A DNA stretch of 34,377 nucleotides from an uncultured Saprospiraceae bacterium (GTDB taxonomy: Bacteria; Bacteroidota; Bacteroidia; Chitinophagales; Saprospiraceae). The position numbers and the translations under genes are program-made. Positions 2,414 to 23,357 of this stretch are shown here, one piece after another (position 1 is the stretch's first letter; the number at the start of each line of letters is the position of its first letter). A model generated the notes under the pieces. It did no database searches and was not told the DNA's origin. It saw only the letters and a program-made list of their open reading frames with translations. The stretch is from positions 1 to 34,377 of the forward strand of contig CAKZTD010000025.1 of assembly GCA_937921595.1 (NCBI GenBank), read 5' to 3'.

Positions 2414-3982
2414 TTATTTCTTCAGTCTTTTTCTTTTCTTTAAAGTAACCTTAGCACCAGTTAAAATAGAAATCGTATTAATCTGATCGCTCTGAGGTCC
2501 AAGACCTTTAGAGAACTGATGTTGATAACCAGGTTGTAAAAAGATACTCATCCTAGGAGTGAAATATCTTTCCACGCCGAAACCAAGATTTGCTGTCAAG
2601 AAAGTATTTTTAGAAAGGCGTCCACCTTCGAAGATGCCATCATAACTATCATATTTTTCTTCCTCTATTCCTTCTGGACCACCACGACCCGCGAAATTTC
2701 TAGAAGCTTCAGAACTTCCTAAATCAGTAGTTGTAAAATTATAGAAGGTTTCAACAGCCACGTTTACAGAAGAACCAGTGTAAGCATATACATTCCATTT
2801 CTTTTTGGTAAAGAAATTATATTTTAAATTTAAAGGCAATCTAATCAAATCTATCTGCGCACCTTCAAAACCTTGTTGCACATAACCACCATCAGCAAAA
2901 CTACCCTTGATTTGGAAAACATTTCTAGAGGCATAACTTACCGCAGAATATAAAGCACCTGTCTCAATTTCCCACTTGCTATATTTAAAACCTAAAGTAA
3001 AACCTCCGCTATATCCAGGAGCCACCTGATTGAAAGCATCCAGGAAGTTTTGGTTGTCAAAAGGCGTCATGATATAATTAGCGTCAGCACCAACTGCCAT
3101 TCCTATTCTTACTTTGATCGGTTGTTTTAAATCAGAGAAGATTTTACCTCCATTCAATTCTTCAATGGTGGCAATTTTAAATTGTTCTTCTTTTAAAAGA
3201 ATTGGATTCATTAAAGCTGCATTGATATTTACATCTTCAGCAACAGGAATATCAGCTTCTACAATTTCAGATTTTTGAATAGTTGAAGATTGAACTACTG
3301 CTGTTTCAGATTCAGAAACAATTACTTCATTGATGATTTCAGGAGTGTTGTTGATGTTCTCTTCTGATTGATCATTAAGTGTAAATAGAGTATTAGGATT
3401 TGAAGAAGAAGGATTATTTATTGAAGCACTACTAGAAAGAGACTTTGTTTCATTCGTTGAAATCTCCGCAATACTAGTAGTTGTATTTGAATCAGAAATA
3501 ACTTTTGAAGTCTGTTCGGAATTATTACTTACTTGATCTTCTTGCGACGAAATGCTATTTATGATTTCGATCTCTTGTGATTGCTGATTAGATGTTGAAT
3601 TATTATTTAAAGCTTCAGTAGGAGTACTCGAAGCGATGTCTCGTGATTGTGACTTTTGAAGTGGTAAAAACTGAACCAAAGTAAATATAAAAAGTGCCAC
3701 CAATGACATTTCCAAAACTTTATATCGCATCAGTTTTCTTCTAAACGCATAAGGTGCGTCTAGCTTCTCTCTCATTAGATTCCAATGCTCTGGCTGATAA
3801 GGCTCTTCCAAATTAAAAAGACTATCAAAAGCAACTCCATCAATCAAAGCGTCTTGCAATTCAGGTTGTAAGTCAGAATGTTCCTCGATCTTCTCTTCCA
3901 TGAGATTCCAGTCCGAAGGCTTGTATTCCACCTCGTAGTCTTGCATTATTTTTTTGACCGCCTTGTCAAAATTATTTTCCAT
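2414..3982 (-). CDS. Sigma-linked membrane protein with C-terminal outer-membrane-type beta-barrel
   Basis: Protein of 522 residues encoded just after an ECF sigma factor. Visible parts in order: a cytoplasmic N-terminus with two copies of a P-x-x-W-N-L-M-x-E-K motif (KPSDWNLMEEKI at 21-32, QPEHWNLMREKL at 63-74); a hydrophobic segment at about 89-107; a long Ser/Thr/Asn/Glu-rich linker to about 225-280; then about 240 residues of alternating beta-strand sequence with aromatic ends, typical of Bacteroidota outer-membrane barrel (PorT-like) domains, and a basic KKRKRLKK tail. The Trp motifs resemble N-termini of sigma-linked proteins in this phylum, so the N-terminus may bind the sigma factor (inference). 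ATG 3982 is preferred over TTG 4003. It overlaps the sigma gene by 11 bp, suggesting translational coupling. Confidence 0.75.
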   Translation of the reverse strand: MENNFDKAVKKIMQDYEVEYKPSDWNLMEEKIEEHSDLQPELQDALIDGVAFDSLFNLEEPYQPEHWNLMREKLDAPYAFRRKLMRYKVLEMSLVALFIFTLVQFLPLQKSQSRDIASSTPTEALNNNSTSNQQSQEIEIINSISSQEDQVSNNSEQTSKVISDSNTTTSIAEISTNETKSLSSSASINNPSSSNPNTLFTLNDQSEENINNTPEIINEVIVSESETAVVQSSTIQKSEIVEADIPVAEDVNINAALMNPILLKEEQFKIATIEELNGGKIFSDLKQPIKVRIGMAVGADANYIMTPFDNQNFLDAFNQVAPGYSGGFTLGFKYSKWEIETGALYSAVSYASRNVFQIKGSFADGGYVQQGFEGAQIDLIRLPLNLKYNFFTKKKWNVYAYTGSSVNVAVETFYNFTTTDLGSSEASRNFAGRGGPEGIEEEKYDSYDGIFEGGRLSKNTFLTANLGFGVERYFTPRMSIFLQPGYQHQFSKGLGPQSDQINTISILTGAKVTLKKRKRLKK

Positions 3983-4535
3983 ACTCAATGTAATTTTTTG
4001 CAAGAAAGCCTTTAAGCTTTAATCTTGCTTTCACTAAATTCGATCGTGACGTACTTTCGGTGATACCTAGTTGTTTTGCGATTTCTTTGTGCGAAAAACC
4101 CTCAATCACATATAGATTGAATACGGCTCGATAAGCAGGGGATAACTTCTGAACAGCAATAAGAATTTCTTTTTCGCTACATTGACTCACAGCATCGGCA
4201 CCATCACCACTTAGACCATAAGCTTTTTCTAGGTCTTCAGTTCGGCGACGAATACTCTTACGGTAAAAGTCAATGGAAGTATTCACCATGATCCGACGTA
4301 TCCATGCTGATATGGATGTCCCGGGTTGGTATTTGGATATGTTGTTGAAAACTTTGAGGAATCCATCATGGAGGATATCAAGAGCATCTTCACGATTATT
4401 GCTATAACGAAGGCATACACCCATCATCTTGCTATAGTGTTCCTCATATAGCTGTTTTTGCGCCCAGCGCTCCTTGTTTACACAAGCGGTAATGAAATCT
4501 TTTTCTTCGTGTTGCAAATCTAAAGCGATATCCAT
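3972..4535 (-). CDS. ECF-type RNA polymerase sigma factor
   Basis: Sigma-70 family extracytoplasmic-function sigma factor, 187 residues. Region 2 is visible as QKQLYEEHYSKMMGVCLRY, then the acidic REDALDILHDGFLKVF core-binding helix, then the -10 recognition helix around SISAWIRRIMVNTSIDFYRK. Region 4 is a helix-turn-helix: LSPAYRAVFNLYVIEGFSHKEIAKQLGITESTSRSNLVKARLKLK. There is no region 1 or 3. It overlaps the next gene by 11 bp, so the two are likely one operon, and that protein is a candidate membrane-bound regulator. A promoter-like pair of boxes precedes it. The regulon is not visible, although sigma factors of this class often control their own operon. Confidence 0.93.
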   Translation of the reverse strand: MDIALDLQHEEKDFITACVNKERWAQKQLYEEHYSKMMGVCLRYSNNREDALDILHDGFLKVFNNISKYQPGTSISAWIRRIMVNTSIDFYRKSIRRRTEDLEKAYGLSGDGADAVSQCSEKEILIAVQKLSPAYRAVFNLYVIEGFSHKEIAKQLGITESTSRSNLVKARLKLKGFLAKNYIEYGK

Positions 4536-10871: not shown

Positions 10872-12059
10872 TTATTTAATTTTTATTATTTTTATCGTTT
10901 CGGGATGGTTGTTGTGTTCTATAGTACAAGTGTAAATACCTGAGGCTAGGTGTGACATTGGGATTTTGATTTGGTGTATTCCTTGTTCCCGATTATTTAA
11001 AACAATGTTGCTAATAGGTTTTCCGAAAAGATCTAATAACTGGAGTTTGATGCTACCTGATTGAGCTAAAGTAACATCAATAGTTAAATCATCTTTAACT
11101 GGATTTTGGTATTTTAAAACTTTAGATTCGAAACGTTTTTTAAAAACTTGTTCTTCAAATATTCTTGTTCTCCTACATTTACACCTAGTAAGTTCAATCT
11201 TTCCAGAAGCCATAATATCAGGGTCTTCTATGTTTATTCTTATATTACTATTAAATTCTAAATGGTATTTTCCAGGATCGCCAGCGTATAAGCTTGTTCC
11301 TGAAATCAAATTTAAATTGTTACTACAAAGAGGATGGATGTATATGTTTTGTGGACTAGTATTAGACTCGTGGACAAAAAATGCAGAAGCCTCATAAGAA
11401 GTAGTTACATCATCAATGTCAATGATGTATTTGGTGATTGCGCAAGATGGGGTATTCGGAAAACTGAATTGAGCATATCCAAGTATTGGCCAAGGAGAGC
11501 CAGGAGGAGCAGGAGACTTTGTTAGCGAAATCTGAATTGGTGTTTTGCAATTACAGGATTGTAATTCTGGTGGACCGTTCAGCATAACATCTTTATCGAC
11601 AATAATGATATTGGCTTTGCTTACTTTTTGGTTCGGACAAACACTATTGAAAAGGAACAAGTAAAACCCCGAAGAGATATTGTATTCCGCATAACCTTCA
11701 TCGGTTATACCATACTCGGTAGCTCCTGTATAAAGATCAAGTGAACGGTGTTCAAAATAAATGACATCATCTAATGGAGTGTCCCATTCAAAAGCGATGA
11801 GTTCCGGGTTGTATTCTACGATATTTGTTTCAGGTGTTTGACAGTTTCCACTATAATTATTTGCGTTAATTGCTTCAGTTAAAAAAACATTGATTTCGTC
11901 AAGGTTGATTTCAATTTGTGAGCCATATGCTTCTTCTATATGTTCTAGTACCTCGTTTATATTTTCCGGTTCTAGTATAAAAGGTGCCTGAGCAAATAAA
12001 GGAATGTTAGAAAATAATAATAGAACGATAAATGAAAGTAGGGATTTAGTAGTATACAT
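10872..12059 (-). CDS. Secreted protein of unknown function with T9SS C-terminal sorting domain
   Basis: Exported protein of 395 residues. The N-terminus is a signal peptide (hydrophobic LLSFIVLLLFSNIPLFAQ, cleavage after about residue 24). The middle part is not recognised. It holds several cysteines in pairs (SCNCKT, RCKCRR), which may form disulfides after export, and beta-rich segments such as GYAQFSFPNTPSC. The C-terminal 75 or so residues (KYQNPVKDDLTIDV, then LQLLDLFGKPISN, HLASGIYTCTIE and TIKIIKIK) are a typical T9SS type A sorting domain, so it is predicted to be surface-bound or released. It is next to a second T9SS cargo gene in the same direction but has its own terminator. The function is unknown. 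Confidence 0.82.
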   Translation of the reverse strand: MYTTKSLLSFIVLLLFSNIPLFAQAPFILEPENINEVLEHIEEAYGSQIEINLDEINVFLTEAINANNYSGNCQTPETNIVEYNPELIAFEWDTPLDDVIYFEHRSLDLYTGATEYGITDEGYAEYNISSGFYLFLFNSVCPNQKVSKANIIIVDKDVMLNGPPELQSCNCKTPIQISLTKSPAPPGSPWPILGYAQFSFPNTPSCAITKYIIDIDDVTTSYEASAFFVHESNTSPQNIYIHPLCSNNLNLISGTSLYAGDPGKYHLEFNSNIRINIEDPDIMASGKIELTRCKCRRTRIFEEQVFKKRFESKVLKYQNPVKDDLTIDVTLAQSGSIKLQLLDLFGKPISNIVLNNREQGIHQIKIPMSHLASGIYTCTIEHNNHPETIKIIKIK

Positions 12060-19156: not shown

Positions 19157-22021
19157 TCAGTGTTTAGTGTTTATTTTTATAGAAATAAAACCAAGAAAAG
19201 CTAACAAGGCAAGCCCTAAGGCCCACCATAAAAGATTTTGATTTTCCAAAGTAATCCCTTCATTGTCACCAGTCAAGACGAAGGCGGCCCAATAGTGAGG
19301 AAAGTTTTTTCTACTCTGATCGAGGTAGGATAATTTGGCGAGTCGTAAGGCTTCGGCTTTTCCTTTTCCAGCTTTTAGGTTTTTGTAAAAGGAGTCCATC
19401 AAAATGGAAGTAGTTTGATCATCGGCTTGCCAAAGACTTTGGACGATGTTGGGACAACCTGCCTGTCGGAAAGATCGAGCTAAACTAATTGGCCCTTCGC
19501 CTGCAACCTGTTTTCCGGAACCTGTATTGCAGGCACTCAATACCACTAAGTCGGAAGACAATTTCATATTGGCGATCTCGTAGGCATAAAGTATTTCCTC
19601 TTGTTGTTCTGCGGAATTTCCAGGAAAAATTAAACCTGAAAAAGAAGGGTTTTCATCGTCAGTAAAAGCATGCATGGCTAGGTGCAATAAACGATATTGC
19701 TGCGCTAGATTTTTAAAATTGTCTTCTGTCGCAGAAACACCAGTCATGGTTTTTGTGGAAAATATTTTACCTAGATTTTTGATTTCTTTTTGAGCAAATT
19801 CCAAAGGCGAGAAGCCAGATCGCATTGACAAAGGTGAATTGTCATTTGAAGTGTAGGTAGGTGCAAAGGCTAAAATTTCATCTTTGGTCGATTCGTTTTT
19901 GGTCACATCATTTAATAAAAAGGAAGGGGCATAAGCATATCTGACGCTGGCTTTTTTTAATAAATAAGGTAAAATGCTATAATCGATTTCAGTCGTTTTT
20001 TGGGAATCATCAGTCAACAGTATTTCAAAAGGAATCAAATTTAAAATGCCATCAGGAATTAAAACCACCGACTTTGGGATTGATATTTCTGCTGGAAAAA
20101 TTTCTTGGAAAATAGATTTTGACTGACGGATAAAATCTAAATACAGTTGTTTGGAATTTCCTTTTTTGCTGGCTAAAAGGTTGTCATTTAGCATTTTAGA
20201 AAAGGTGGAGATGGAAATTTTAAAATCCTCGGGTTTTTCCAATCGTTTAAAATCAATCCGATCATTCGTTATTTTAAAAAAGAATAATTGAGTTTCGCCT
20301 GTAAACCACGCAAAGACTGCTTCCTCATCTTTTATATTTTGCTGAATGTCCGAAAGCTTAAATTCGGCCAATTCATTTTTTATTTGAAAGTACTTCGGGA
20401 AGTTTTCTTCGAGTTCATTTACATTGGATTGATATACTCGATTTTTTTCAAAAAGCATATTTTCCAATTCACTTTTTTGGGAAGCATCGAAAGCTTCTTT
20501 TATTTGAAAAACGATTTCATTTAATTCCTTTTTCAAAGAACCCACTTGTTGTCTTATGCTGTCGGGGATTTCAGCTAGACTTTTGGCTCGTTCATTTTGT
20601 AAAATATCTCTCAATAAAAATGCTTTGCTCTGTTCGTAAATTTCCAATGCTTTTTCATTGTAGATCGAATCACCCGTTTTTTCAAAAAGCGCTAAACAGA
20701 AGCTCAATGCTTTTTCAAAAACTGACCTTGAATCTTCTGAAAAAAGAAATTTAGAATTTTCGGATTCGATGTCCTGTTGCGTGAAAATGATGGTTTGAAT
20801 TAATGCTTCGGCAGTATTCAGGGCTGCTTTTAATTTAAAGACTTCCGGAGTTTCTTTATTCCAGGCGTTGAGTGTTGACATTTTTTCTCTTAGGACTTGG
20901 AACAATCGCTGGGACACAAAATATTTTTCTATTGTCGGGTTGTCGAATGGGGTTTCTTCCATCGGAAGAGGGGAAAGCATTTCCAAAGCTTTTTGATAAT
21001 AAGGAAGCGCTTGCTCATATTTTTTTGCTGATTGGTAAATCGTCCCTAAATTCTGATAAGCAGTAGCGGCATAAATCGGATTTTCTTTTGATTTATTATA
21101 ATAATCAATCGCTTGGTTGCCATATTTTACAGCAAGTTCAAATTCATTTTTATGAAAGTATGCTTCACTTAAAGAGGTTAAAGTGTGAGCTAGTTTTCGA
21201 TTCTGATCTTCTTCGTTTGCTTGATTAATGGCCAGTGCCTTTTCAAAAAAATCAATGGCCTTGTCATAATTCTCATCCCTAACATAAACGCTACCGATAT
21301 TAAAATAGGTGTCGGCCACCCTTGGGTGTTGATCGCCAAGTTGCTGGATTTTAATCTTTAATGCTTTTTGATAGTATGCAGTTGCTTTGCTGTTATCGTC
21401 TAATAAATAATAAACGTTTCCAATATTATTTAAGGTAATACCAACCGACCGATCGTTCTTTCCAAAGGCTTCAATTTTAATATTTAAAGCTTGATCATAA
21501 TAATTTAAAGCCTGCTCATAATCTTTTTTTCTCATCCAATACATAGCGAAGACATTATAACATCCAGCAATCGACTTTCTGTTATCTCCCTTATCTTTTT
21601 TTAGGATGTCCAAAGCTTTAGAGGTTAGATGAGGTATTTGTTCCGCATTTCTAAATCTGTGGTCTATTTTGGCAAACAAATAAAATAACTCTCCCATTAG
21701 TAAATGCTGCTCTCCCAAATGTAGCGCACATTGCTCTTGGACGGGTTTCATCAATGTAAATATTTCATTGGAATTGGCTAGGTAAAAATAGCATTCCATT
21801 ATACTTATTTGATCTGTAATATACCGCTCCCAGTTTTTCTCTTTTTCAAATATTTGAGTGGAGGATTTATATTTTTCTATGGCGAGAGAAAACTTTCCTT
21901 GGTTATAAAGTTGATCTCCTTCTTGTTCTAGTTTTAGTCCCAATGAATCGAGAGGAGCACTTTGGCTAGCTAATGGATTGATCGTATGAAATAAAAAAAA
22001 GCAGAAAATGATTAAACGCAT
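19157..22021 (-). CDS. Exported TPR-CHAT protein (caspase-like protease fold)
   Basis: Protein of 954 residues. It has a signal peptide (first 20 or so residues, ending SQS) and an array of TPR repeats at about 25-380 (for example YNQGKFSLAIEKYKSS, NNIGNVYYLLDDNSKATAYY, NIGSVYVRDENYDKAIDFF). A long helical region follows (about 390-570), then a CHAT domain at about 640-925 with the caspase-like dyad: His784 in HLAMHAFTDD and Cys831 in VVLSACNTGSG, followed by GEGPISLARSFRQAGCPNIVQSLW. A hydrophobic segment at about 930-949 precedes a short basic tail. With a signal peptide and a C-terminal anchor, the TPR and CHAT parts should sit in the periplasm. It is last in an operon, 6 bp after the anti-sigma-like gene. 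CHAT domains are cysteine proteases in known cases; the substrate here is unknown. Confidence 0.88.
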   Translation of the reverse strand: MRLIIFCFFLFHTINPLASQSAPLDSLGLKLEQEGDQLYNQGKFSLAIEKYKSSTQIFEKEKNWERYITDQISIMECYFYLANSNEIFTLMKPVQEQCALHLGEQHLLMGELFYLFAKIDHRFRNAEQIPHLTSKALDILKKDKGDNRKSIAGCYNVFAMYWMRKKDYEQALNYYDQALNIKIEAFGKNDRSVGITLNNIGNVYYLLDDNSKATAYYQKALKIKIQQLGDQHPRVADTYFNIGSVYVRDENYDKAIDFFEKALAINQANEEDQNRKLAHTLTSLSEAYFHKNEFELAVKYGNQAIDYYNKSKENPIYAATAYQNLGTIYQSAKKYEQALPYYQKALEMLSPLPMEETPFDNPTIEKYFVSQRLFQVLREKMSTLNAWNKETPEVFKLKAALNTAEALIQTIIFTQQDIESENSKFLFSEDSRSVFEKALSFCLALFEKTGDSIYNEKALEIYEQSKAFLLRDILQNERAKSLAEIPDSIRQQVGSLKKELNEIVFQIKEAFDASQKSELENMLFEKNRVYQSNVNELEENFPKYFQIKNELAEFKLSDIQQNIKDEEAVFAWFTGETQLFFFKITNDRIDFKRLEKPEDFKISISTFSKMLNDNLLASKKGNSKQLYLDFIRQSKSIFQEIFPAEISIPKSVVLIPDGILNLIPFEILLTDDSQKTTEIDYSILPYLLKKASVRYAYAPSFLLNDVTKNESTKDEILAFAPTYTSNDNSPLSMRSGFSPLEFAQKEIKNLGKIFSTKTMTGVSATEDNFKNLAQQYRLLHLAMHAFTDDENPSFSGLIFPGNSAEQQEEILYAYEIANMKLSSDLVVLSACNTGSGKQVAGEGPISLARSFRQAGCPNIVQSLWQADDQTTSILMDSFYKNLKAGKGKAEALRLAKLSYLDQSRKNFPHYWAAFVLTGDNEGITLENQNLLWWALGLALLAFLGFISIKINTKH

Positions 22022-22027
22022 TTGGCT

Positions 22028-22762
22028 TTATTTATTGATTTGTTCAAGAGTTTCTACAGCTTCTTTATATTTAAAATGACGAGGTTGATCTGCTATTTTT
22101 TGCAATGTTCTTTTTGCTTCGGTTAAATTTTCCATTTTTAAAAAAGTCAATGCTAGAAACCATTCTGCATCTTGAATAAAAGAGCTTTCCGCATTAATAG
22201 CCTCAAAATAGTTGACTGCTTTCTGATTTTTATCTTGCATCAATTGACTCAATCCCAAGTATAGATTTCCACGATCGGTAAAAGGAAAGTTAGGTTGATT
22301 CACCAAAGGAGAAAGCAATTCAATCGTCTTTTTAAAATCCTGATTGGAATAAGCGGTCATCGCTTCATTCCAGATTTCTGTTTGAGTATTGGCATTCCGT
22401 TCCCCAGCTGGATCAGGTAATTCAAAATGACTAGCAAATAATTCATTTCCTGATTGAACTTGTCCATTTTGCAAGAGGAAAAAAGCTGCTATAGCAAAAG
22501 CAAATATAGCAGCTATTTGTATTGCTTTTTTTAGCGAAAAAATTGGAGTCGGTTTCTTTTCATGATTTTCCAAAGCAGCGAATGCTTTCTTTTTAAGTTC
22601 TTGTTTTGCAGTCGAACGGATGACTTGCAGGTCTTTTTGATGTAAGTCAAATTCCTGTTTTAATTCCGAGTCGGATTCAAGGCGCTGTTTAAAATCTGTT
22701 TCAGAAATTTCTCCTGATCGGTATCGGTCTATGTATTCTTGTCGATCTTTGAGGGGATTCAT
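22028..22762 (-). CDS. One-pass membrane TPR protein, probable anti-sigma-like regulator
   Basis: Protein of 244 residues between a sigma factor and a CHAT protein. The cytoplasmic N-terminus (1-75) has YRSGEISETDFKQRLESDSE, the kind of acidic helical segment found at the start of Bacteroidota anti-sigma proteins. One membrane helix lies at about 79-98 (KKAIQIAAIFAFAIAAFFLL). The remainder, including TPR-like helices (NQDFKKTIELLSPLV, GNLYLGLSQLMQDKNQKAVNYF, AEWFLALTFLKMENLTEAKRTL), should be periplasmic. No zinc-binding anti-sigma motif is visible. It starts 31 bp after the sigma gene and ends 6 bp before the CHAT gene. Inference: it holds the sigma factor and senses a periplasmic signal through its TPRs, possibly with the TPR-CHAT partner. 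Confidence 0.72.
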   Translation of the reverse strand: MNPLKDRQEYIDRYRSGEISETDFKQRLESDSELKQEFDLHQKDLQVIRSTAKQELKKKAFAALENHEKKPTPIFSLKKAIQIAAIFAFAIAAFFLLQNGQVQSGNELFASHFELPDPAGERNANTQTEIWNEAMTAYSNQDFKKTIELLSPLVNQPNFPFTDRGNLYLGLSQLMQDKNQKAVNYFEAINAESSFIQDAEWFLALTFLKMENLTEAKRTLQKIADQPRHFKYKEAVETLEQINK

Positions 22763-22793
22763 AATTTAAGATATTTCATTTAACAAAATGATT

Positions 22794-23357
22794 TCACTGC
22801 ATCAGGTTTCGTAGTTTTTGCAAACATTTATATTTTCGATCTTTGGCTTGTTTGCTTCCTTCGAGTCCAACTCGTTCGGCAATCTCAGTCATATTATAGC
22901 CCCAAAATCCCCAGTCTAACAGTATTTGTTTACAAGGCTCACCGATTTGATCCATGAATTTGTAAAGCTCCTTTATTGCTTCATTGGTTTCCATACTTTT
23001 AGCCACCAGAGGTTCCTGGTCGGTCAAATCTGGAAGCTCCGCTCTGTAGTCTATCTTGTTAGTCGTATTTTTTCTGAAAAGGTCGACGGATTTGAAATAA
23101 AAAATTTTATAGAAGTAGGAACTCAGTTTGCTTTCTCCTTTAAACTCCCCTTTTGCTACCTGATCGGACAGCATGATGATCGCATCTGTAAACATATCCA
23201 ACGCTTCCTCTCTGGTGAGTCCCGTCTTTTTAGCTACAGTTGGGACATAATGAATGAATTGCTTCATGACGTAGTCAACTGCATTTTCTCTTGACTTTCC
23301 ACCTGTAGTTAGATTATCAATTATTTTTTGATCTGACCAGCCGTTTATTTCCCGCAT
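22794..23357 (-). CDS. Sigma-70 family (ECF-like) sigma factor of a CHAT operon
   Basis: Sigma-70-like transcription factor, 187 residues, divergent from the ECF at 3972. Region 2 is seen as a helical bundle around REEALDMFTDAIIMLSDQV, KLSSYFYKIFYFKSVDLFRK. Region 4 is a helix-turn-helix with CKQILLDWGFWGYNMTEIAERVGLEGSKQ and AKDRKYKCLQKLR. This variant (GGKSRENAVDYVMKQF at the front, a D/E-rich loop with LTDQEP in the middle) is a type I know from Bacteroidota CHAT/TPR operons. It is first in a three-gene operon with the TPR anti-sigma-like protein and the TPR-CHAT protein. The promoter could not be pinned in the AT-rich 210 bp upstream. Confidence 0.85.
   Translation of the reverse strand: MREINGWSDQKIIDNLTTGGKSRENAVDYVMKQFIHYVPTVAKKTGLTREEALDMFTDAIIMLSDQVAKGEFKGESKLSSYFYKIFYFKSVDLFRKNTTNKIDYRAELPDLTDQEPLVAKSMETNEAIKELYKFMDQIGEPCKQILLDWGFWGYNMTEIAERVGLEGSKQAKDRKYKCLQKLRNLMQ

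Follow-up and report, generated by a model that had tools for sequence, protein, structure and literature searches.

In this study, we analyzed a three-gene locus in a stretch of 34,377 nucleotides (positions 1 to 34,377 of contig CAKZTD010000025.1, assembly GCA_937921595.1; referred to as the window) from an uncultured Saprospiraceae bacterium. The locus encodes a sigma factor of 187 amino acids (22794-23357), a single-pass membrane protein of 244 amino acids with tetratricopeptide repeats (TPR), here called Mid (22028-22762), and a TPR-CHAT protein of 954 amino acids (19157-22021); these genes and all of their features given below lie on the minus strand. We are highly confident that the trio represents one signalling module of a sigma factor, an anti-sigma factor and an exported CHAT protein. 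In addition, we lean towards the view that the CHAT protein proteolyses the anti-sigma factor from the periplasmic side in a regulated way, to be followed by a site-2 protease. Our computations gave the association of the genes, which has outlasted reordering, the conserved catalytic pair, the predicted topology, a conserved juxtamembrane segment in Mid and an RseP-family gene in the host genome. An earlier note on this DNA, made from the sequence alone, had described three tightly packed genes, and the list of open reading frames confirmed them, with gaps of 31 bp between the sigma factor and Mid genes and of 6 bp between the Mid and CHAT genes.

Co-occurrence and co-divergence of the three genes

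The earlier note had named gene co-occurrence as a check on the circuit it proposed, and the trio proved to be co-conserved. A first set was chosen by Mid with CHAT disregarded: of the 41 best foreign Mid matches, 40 were used (C186 of genome G001, at a contig end, was left out), and these represent 17 other genomes of the order. A sigma factor gene lies beside Mid in 40 of 40 loci (39 identified by hidden Markov model (HMM), L212 by Pfam). A CHAT gene is found within five genes in 22 of these loci (21 by script, plus L221, confirmed separately), compared to a chance expectation of ~1.1 within 8 kb derived from the CHAT counts per genome. A second set was chosen by CHAT and consists of the best 80 of at least 574 relatives, mostly from Saprospiraceae and other Bacteroidota, with many loci ending at a contig edge. 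Within five genes, 35 of these 80 loci have a sigma factor gene, 35 have Mid and 30 have both, or 29 if Mid matches must exceed 40 bits. Cultured relatives that carry the trio include Kordia zhangzhouensis (L134) and Flagellimonas hymeniacidonis (L091).

The association was also seen at greater distance. In nine genomes from other parts of the phylum, 13 of 16 strong Mids lie at most ~6.5 kb from a CHAT domain, with coordinates compared by eye, versus 0.2 expected by chance within 8 kb. CHAT was present in 17/17 order-level genomes yielding Mid loci (best Mid at least 86 bits) and in 8 of the 41 others (best Mid at most 77 bits). In a wider sample, 8/9 genomes with Mid had CHAT versus 1/9 hand-picked controls. 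The module thus recurs, yet its distribution is patchy, as a phylum-wide sample of 148 genomes gave only 13 with Mid at E 1e-20 or better.

The host genome (8.04 Mb, 465 contigs) holds 59 matches to the sigma factor model, 16 to the Mid model (13 above 70 bits) and 22 to CHAT (20 above the family cut-off). Seven of the 13 strong Mids have CHAT within five genes, in differing arrangements, and a further CHAT is found at L033, the sigma factor gene of which is broken by the contig end. Up to seven complete trio sets were found in one genome. The paralogues share only 22-27% identity with the window Mid and 21-28% with the window CHAT, indicating an old family rather than recent copying. The CHAT matches are even more numerous in genome G035, with 45 in 7.6 Mb.

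We compared gene order in 58 triplets (7 from the host genome, 29 CHAT-chosen, 22 Mid-chosen). Divergent arrangements of CHAT are the most frequent (27), followed by convergent ones (17), eight of which overlap at their 3' ends. Among the triplets with CHAT on the same strand, it lies downstream in 9, as it does in the window, and upstream in 5. This varying order implies that the genes stayed together through rearrangement. The sigma factor paralogues were aligned, as were those of Mid and CHAT, and among same-genome paralogues the pairwise distances correlated best for Mid and CHAT (r 0.60; 4 of 5000 shuffles as high), followed by sigma factor and Mid (r 0.49; 35/5000) and by sigma factor and CHAT (r 0.43; 219/5000). 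These sequence distances suggest that Mid is the contact partner of CHAT.

Features of the three proteins

The sigma factor passes the ECF (extracytoplasmic function) sigma factor model TIGR02937 (55.4 bits, cut-off 42.9), and no Pfam match was found for it at E 0.01. For Mid, Pfam yielded a weak TPR_6 match and other library scans likewise gave weak TPR models alone; an anti-sigma family match was absent in Pfam and in further family-model scans. We call the N-terminus of Mid anti-sigma-like because relatives match zf-HC2 (PF13490; cut-off 22.2 bits): L139 reaches 26.1 bits and L135 also passes, while L091 (21.5 bits) and L118 fall short. Mid itself has a single transmembrane helix and an adjoining ECF sigma factor gene, and with its N-terminal domain assigned through these relatives alone, it is probably an anti-sigma factor. 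The AlphaFold model of Mid (mean pLDDT 91.3) contains predicted cytoplasmic helices at residues 3-15, 21-30 and 32-68, and this N-terminal part (residues 1-75; 22538-22762) would bind the sigma factor. According to hydropathy, the transmembrane helix follows at residues 80-98 (22469-22525; 77-99 in the model), with Lys/Arg residues before it. A Foldseek search with the Mid model gave nothing that reached E 0.001; among the 50 matches listed, most are TPR proteins and none is titled an anti-sigma factor.

In the TPR-CHAT protein, the CHAT domain spans residues 649-919 (19265-20077; PF12770, 196.8 bits, cut-off 24, E 7e-58), and several TPR models of Pfam were matched as well. His780, His784 (codon 19670-19672) and Cys831 (codon 19529-19531) are all present, of which we take His784 and Cys831 to be the catalytic residues, as in the CHAT family. 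The intact pair noted earlier held up across relatives. It is invariant in 13/13 aligned host paralogues, excluding truncated or caspase-like matches, and kept in 22 of the 25 CHAT proteins of Mid-chosen loci, i.e. in 35/38 proteins that were not picked by a Cys-bearing pattern. Additionally, it is kept in 92 of 96 CHAT proteins from loci found by a peptide pattern containing the Cys. A first count of 127/134 was given less weight, as these 96 of the 134 proteins had been found with that pattern. The three misses among the Mid-chosen loci all come from one genome (G008): L182 (14848-17187), L183 (9823-12168) and L213 (1176-3377) encode CHAT-like proteins of 733-781 amino acids near sigma factor/Mid pairs; these proteins lack the catalytic pair at the aligned positions and are possibly inactive partners.

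The CHAT protein starts with a signal-peptide-like hydrophobic run (residues 1-19; 21965-22021), and an export-type start of this kind was found by hydropathy rules in 117 of 134 CHAT proteins. Its C-terminus carries a transmembrane helix (residues 930-946; 19184-19234; hydropathy, with a model helix at 929-953) followed by a positive tail. Both features place the CHAT protein, by prediction, in the periplasm, on the same side of the membrane as the TPR half of Mid. The exported CHAT of the earlier note is therefore retained, as export-type N-termini and positive tails, judged by hydropathy rules only, oppose a cytoplasmic site. The structure model of the CHAT protein (pTM 0.82) matches the folds of Csx29/TPR-CHAT and separase, with the Craspase chains 8d9g (E 1.1e-15) and 8eey (1.3e-15) as best Foldseek matches.

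The conserved juxtamembrane segment of Mid, LFASHFELPDPAGERN (residues 108-123; 22394-22441), was delineated by alignment and is a candidate recognition or cleavage segment for a protease. The model has a helix here (105-112) and then a loop to residue 125. In an alignment of 54 Mids, the membrane helix is followed by the pattern L-[YF]-A-x-x-[YF]...P...R-[GS], and the column of Arg122 (codon 22397-22399) holds Arg in 43 and Lys in 4 of them. In the Mids of L115, L129, L156 and L160, a long linker shifts the segment 39-83 residues outward. A similar segment follows the long linker of what we call class II proteins, which were read from sequence at four loci and have a zinc-like N-terminus and a C-terminal part without TPR.

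As far as the sequence covers its end, the partner CHAT of long-linker Mids and of class II proteins lacks the C-terminal anchor. Short linkers go with an anchored CHAT at 51 loci and with an unanchored one at 3, compared to 0 and 3 for long linkers (p 7e-4; 3e-7 with the four class II loci, using a tail-length rule for L160). Under a plain hydropathy rule, which mis-scored one L160 protein ending six residues past the domain, p was 0.018 for class I alone and 1e-5 once class II was included. These counts exclude the CHAT-like proteins of L182, L183 and L213, the broken L153, L129 and L030, where CHAT runs off the contig, and L033, where Mid is not in view. The four class II seeds were noticed while going through the unanchored CHATs. 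With an HMM made from these seeds, no additional class II protein turned up beside an anchored CHAT, and its other matches were weak class I proteins or unrelated. Such matched reach and anchoring is suggestive of an enzyme-substrate pair.

Several neighbours of related loci were also recorded. Secreted-looking proteins of about 300 amino acids lie between the sigma factor and CHAT genes at host loci L025 (7582-8568), L028 (3717-4688), L030 (7760-8686) and L033 (3245-4156). Their ends resemble type IX secretion system (T9SS) sorting domains by eye, and a role as sensor or cargo is possible; no such protein is present in the window trio. At L188, a sigma factor/Mid pair adjoins a TonB-dependent receptor (Pfam), and outer-membrane barrel genes were judged by eye to lie beside such pairs at L191 and L206, an arrangement reminiscent of FecIRA-type signalling. 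In genome G001, subtilases occur near the pairs at L201, L202, L203, L209 and L210, with leucine-rich repeat subtilases at L201 and L203 and a T9SS-tailed M43 peptidase also at L210. Other proteases may substitute for CHAT there, but we rejected them as general partners of Mid, given that the nearby subtilases all come from this single genome. Finally, host locus L038 (843-10585) contains genes for a sigma factor and a long-linker anti-sigma-like protein, followed by caspase (Peptidase C14) TPR genes.

Relation to known systems

The nearest solved CHAT protein by sequence is PDB entry 8rot, titled transmembrane anti-sigma factor DdvA (profile E 3.6e-7), which belongs to the DdvA/DdvS system of Myxococcus xanthus (8rot, 8rw5, 8rlz) and shows His and Cys in the corresponding alignment positions. 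According to an excerpt of its description, DdvA restrains the ECF factor DdvS (PMC4374960). DdvA combines anti-sigma factor and CHAT in one chain, whereas the window encodes two proteins, and the CHAT protein carries a signal-peptide-like start as well as a membrane anchor of its own. Judging from the title and the sequence match, the DdvA arrangement would look as if Mid and CHAT had been fused. We did not assign the trio to the DdvA-type single-chain anti-sigma factors, since Mid and CHAT are encoded separately, and a score of 12.4 bits between the N-terminus of DdvA and L139 gave no support for their relatedness.

Further precedents are described in excerpts of the cited papers. In type III-E CRISPR systems, the TPR-CHAT protease Csx29 cuts Csx30, a protein that inhibits an ECF sigma factor, and this cleavage is proposed to lift the inhibition (PMC10028731). 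Csx29/Csx30/CASP-sigma thus share a TPR-CHAT protease, an ECF sigma factor and a sigma factor inhibitor with the trio, in addition to the fold match. However, Csx29 is activated by RNA in the Cas7-11 complex, in contrast to the exported, membrane-anchored CHAT of the trio. Membership in the type III-E CASP systems was rejected, as Cas7-11/gRAMP and CRISPR genes were not found among the window proteins tested (CRISPR arrays were not searched) and the sigma factor scored 24.6 bits with the type III-E model NF041236, far below the cut-off of 100. CalpL/CalpT/CalpS of type III CRISPR likewise form a triad of protease, anti-sigma factor and ECF sigma factor; unlike the trio with its CHAT protein, CalpL is a Lon-type protease activated by cyclic tetra-adenylate (cA4) (PMC11417357). 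The neighbours of ECF54 include CHAT proteins, subtilases and carboxypeptidases, and proteolytic control of this group has been proposed, but ECF54 is described without an anti-sigma factor, unlike the trio (PMC8999054). An ECF factor and a TPR protein have also been reported in the gene neighbourhoods of caspases (PMC8195603). Among the best-ranked matches, we found no open-access title or abstract opening describing the trio.

The earlier note had suggested that a sigma-coupled, exported version would be a distinct use of CHAT proteases. For the coupling to a sigma factor this does not hold as stated, since Csx29/Csx30 and DdvA already link CHAT to sigma factors. With Csx29/Csx30/CASP-sigma, CalpL/CalpT/CalpS and DdvA as precedents, the novelty is narrowed, and only the exported, separately encoded form with multiple paralogues is distinct.

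Proposed mechanism and alternatives

The best explanation of our data is that the CHAT protein acts as a dedicated site-1-type protease for the anti-sigma factor near the segment with Arg122; the cleavage itself is an inference. At the inner membrane, the N-terminal anti-sigma domain of Mid would hold the sigma factor, while in the periplasm its TPR half would face the membrane-anchored TPR-CHAT protein. The TPR array of the latter might sense a signal, upon which the His/Cys site would act on the anti-sigma factor in the neighbourhood of Arg122 (residues 108-123). The sigma factor would then be set free by a site-2 protease, for instance RseP, and an RseP-family gene scoring above the cut-off (206.9 bits) is present in the host genome. 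The model predicts an anti-sigma factor that is shortened near residues 108-125 in a Cys831-dependent manner. The same logic underlies the RseA-DegS-RseP pathway of sigma-E. DegS is a serine protease acting in the periplasm, whereas CHAT would be a cysteine protease of the caspase/separase fold. In the sigma-E pathway, DegS cuts the anti-sigma factor RseA, and RseP and ClpXP complete the process (PMC10028731).

Several results weigh against this interpretation. No CHAT lies within five genes in 18 of the 40 Mid-chosen loci, and genome G129 has Mid and no CHAT, so that the anti-sigma factor can serve other partners. Over all pairs, the distance correlation is higher for sigma factor and Mid (r 0.57) than for Mid and CHAT (0.32), with 0.21 for sigma factor and CHAT. 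The regular expression for the segment matched 18 of 26 CHAT-unlinked Mids and 48 of 62 linked ones (shuffled rate 0.29). Being about equally common without a near CHAT, the segment is not specific to CHAT partners. Moreover, the cut sites of Craspase vary (L|D, M|K and A|S; excerpt of PMC11106740), and as a conserved cleavage residue is lacking there, Arg122 may not be the cut site. For both reasons, Arg122 was rejected as a proven CHAT-specific cut site. The covariation of linker and anchor was likewise tempered as statistical proof, since a tree of 60 rows (L115 is absent, its sigma factor being unrecognised) shows just two independent changes and an independent-pairs sign test with two pairs gave p 1. 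In addition, the short-linker loci L088, L089 and L221 have a CHAT without C-terminal anchor.

Alternatively, CHAT could be the output of the system, with the sigma factor switching on the CHAT gene and the protein acting as an exported effector, for instance in cell death or defence, without any contact with the anti-sigma factor. ECF factors often regulate neighbouring genes, and the 27 divergent triplets among the 58 could share a control region, although many have intervening genes. A SAVED-CHAT protease is indeed described as an immune effector in an excerpt of PMC11229360. We nevertheless consider this reading unlikely, because 17 of the 58 triplets are tail-to-tail, eight of them with 3' overlaps, and because the same-genome correlation of Mid with CHAT exceeds that of the sigma factor with CHAT. 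Both proteins are furthermore predicted in the same compartment, and DdvA, titled an anti-sigma factor, has CHAT in the same chain. In another reading, CHAT would be a receptor whose binding to the TPR half of Mid reshapes this anti-sigma factor without cutting it. TonB-dependent transducers act on FecR-type anti-sigma factors in this manner, by binding without cutting. The TPR domains in both partners and the outer-membrane barrel genes adjoining sigma factor/Mid pairs (L188 by Pfam, L191 and L206 by eye) would fit such a role, but a pure binder would not need the His/Cys pair that is kept in 35/38 proteins, which makes a receptor function quite improbable to us.

Descent from a common family with Csx29/Csx30/CASP-sigma, of which the trio would be a non-CRISPR member, could account for the same three roles, the Craspase chains as best structural matches and the weak NF041236 match. 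However, this match is not only far below its cut-off but also below the other ECF model scores of the sigma factor, and at the sequence level the CHAT profile is far closer to DdvA (3.6e-7) than to a Craspase chain (0.026). Mid showed no match to a family named for Csx30, though the libraries may not include one, and among ten other proteins of the window none matched a PADLOC family at E 0.001. Within the trio, PADLOC matched nothing beyond a generic TPR family and, weakly, Cas7b in the sigma factor (14.9 bits, E 0.0038). We therefore regard descent from the type III-E family as very improbable.

Returning to cleavage of the anti-sigma factor by CHAT, we tentatively propose, with slightly less than even confidence, a more general scheme: Bacteroidota would possess a large paralogous family of exported proteases of the caspase/separase fold that cut dedicated anti-sigma factors from outside, as a cysteine counterpart of DegS, and DdvA and the type III-E trio would have branched off from the same idea in fused and cytoplasmic form. 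If this is true, many uncharacterised CHAT proteins of Bacteroidota gain a role in signalling rather than killing and become candidate site-1 proteases for anti-sigma factors in this phylum. It would also provide a cellular, non-CRISPR setting to compare with Csx29/Csx30/CASP-sigma and DdvA.

The flanks of the trio are ordinary according to library scans, the nearest genes encoding a Bcr/CflA-type transporter, an MscS-like channel and two glycosyltransferases. The window contains a second ECF sigma factor gene (3972-4535, minus strand) with the Pfam domains Sigma70_r2 and r4_2. It is overlapped by a gene for a protein of 529 amino acids (2414-4003, minus strand) that has no Pfam match at E 0.001. 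A protein bearing a Por_Secre_tail T9SS sorting domain is encoded at 10872-12059, also on the minus strand.

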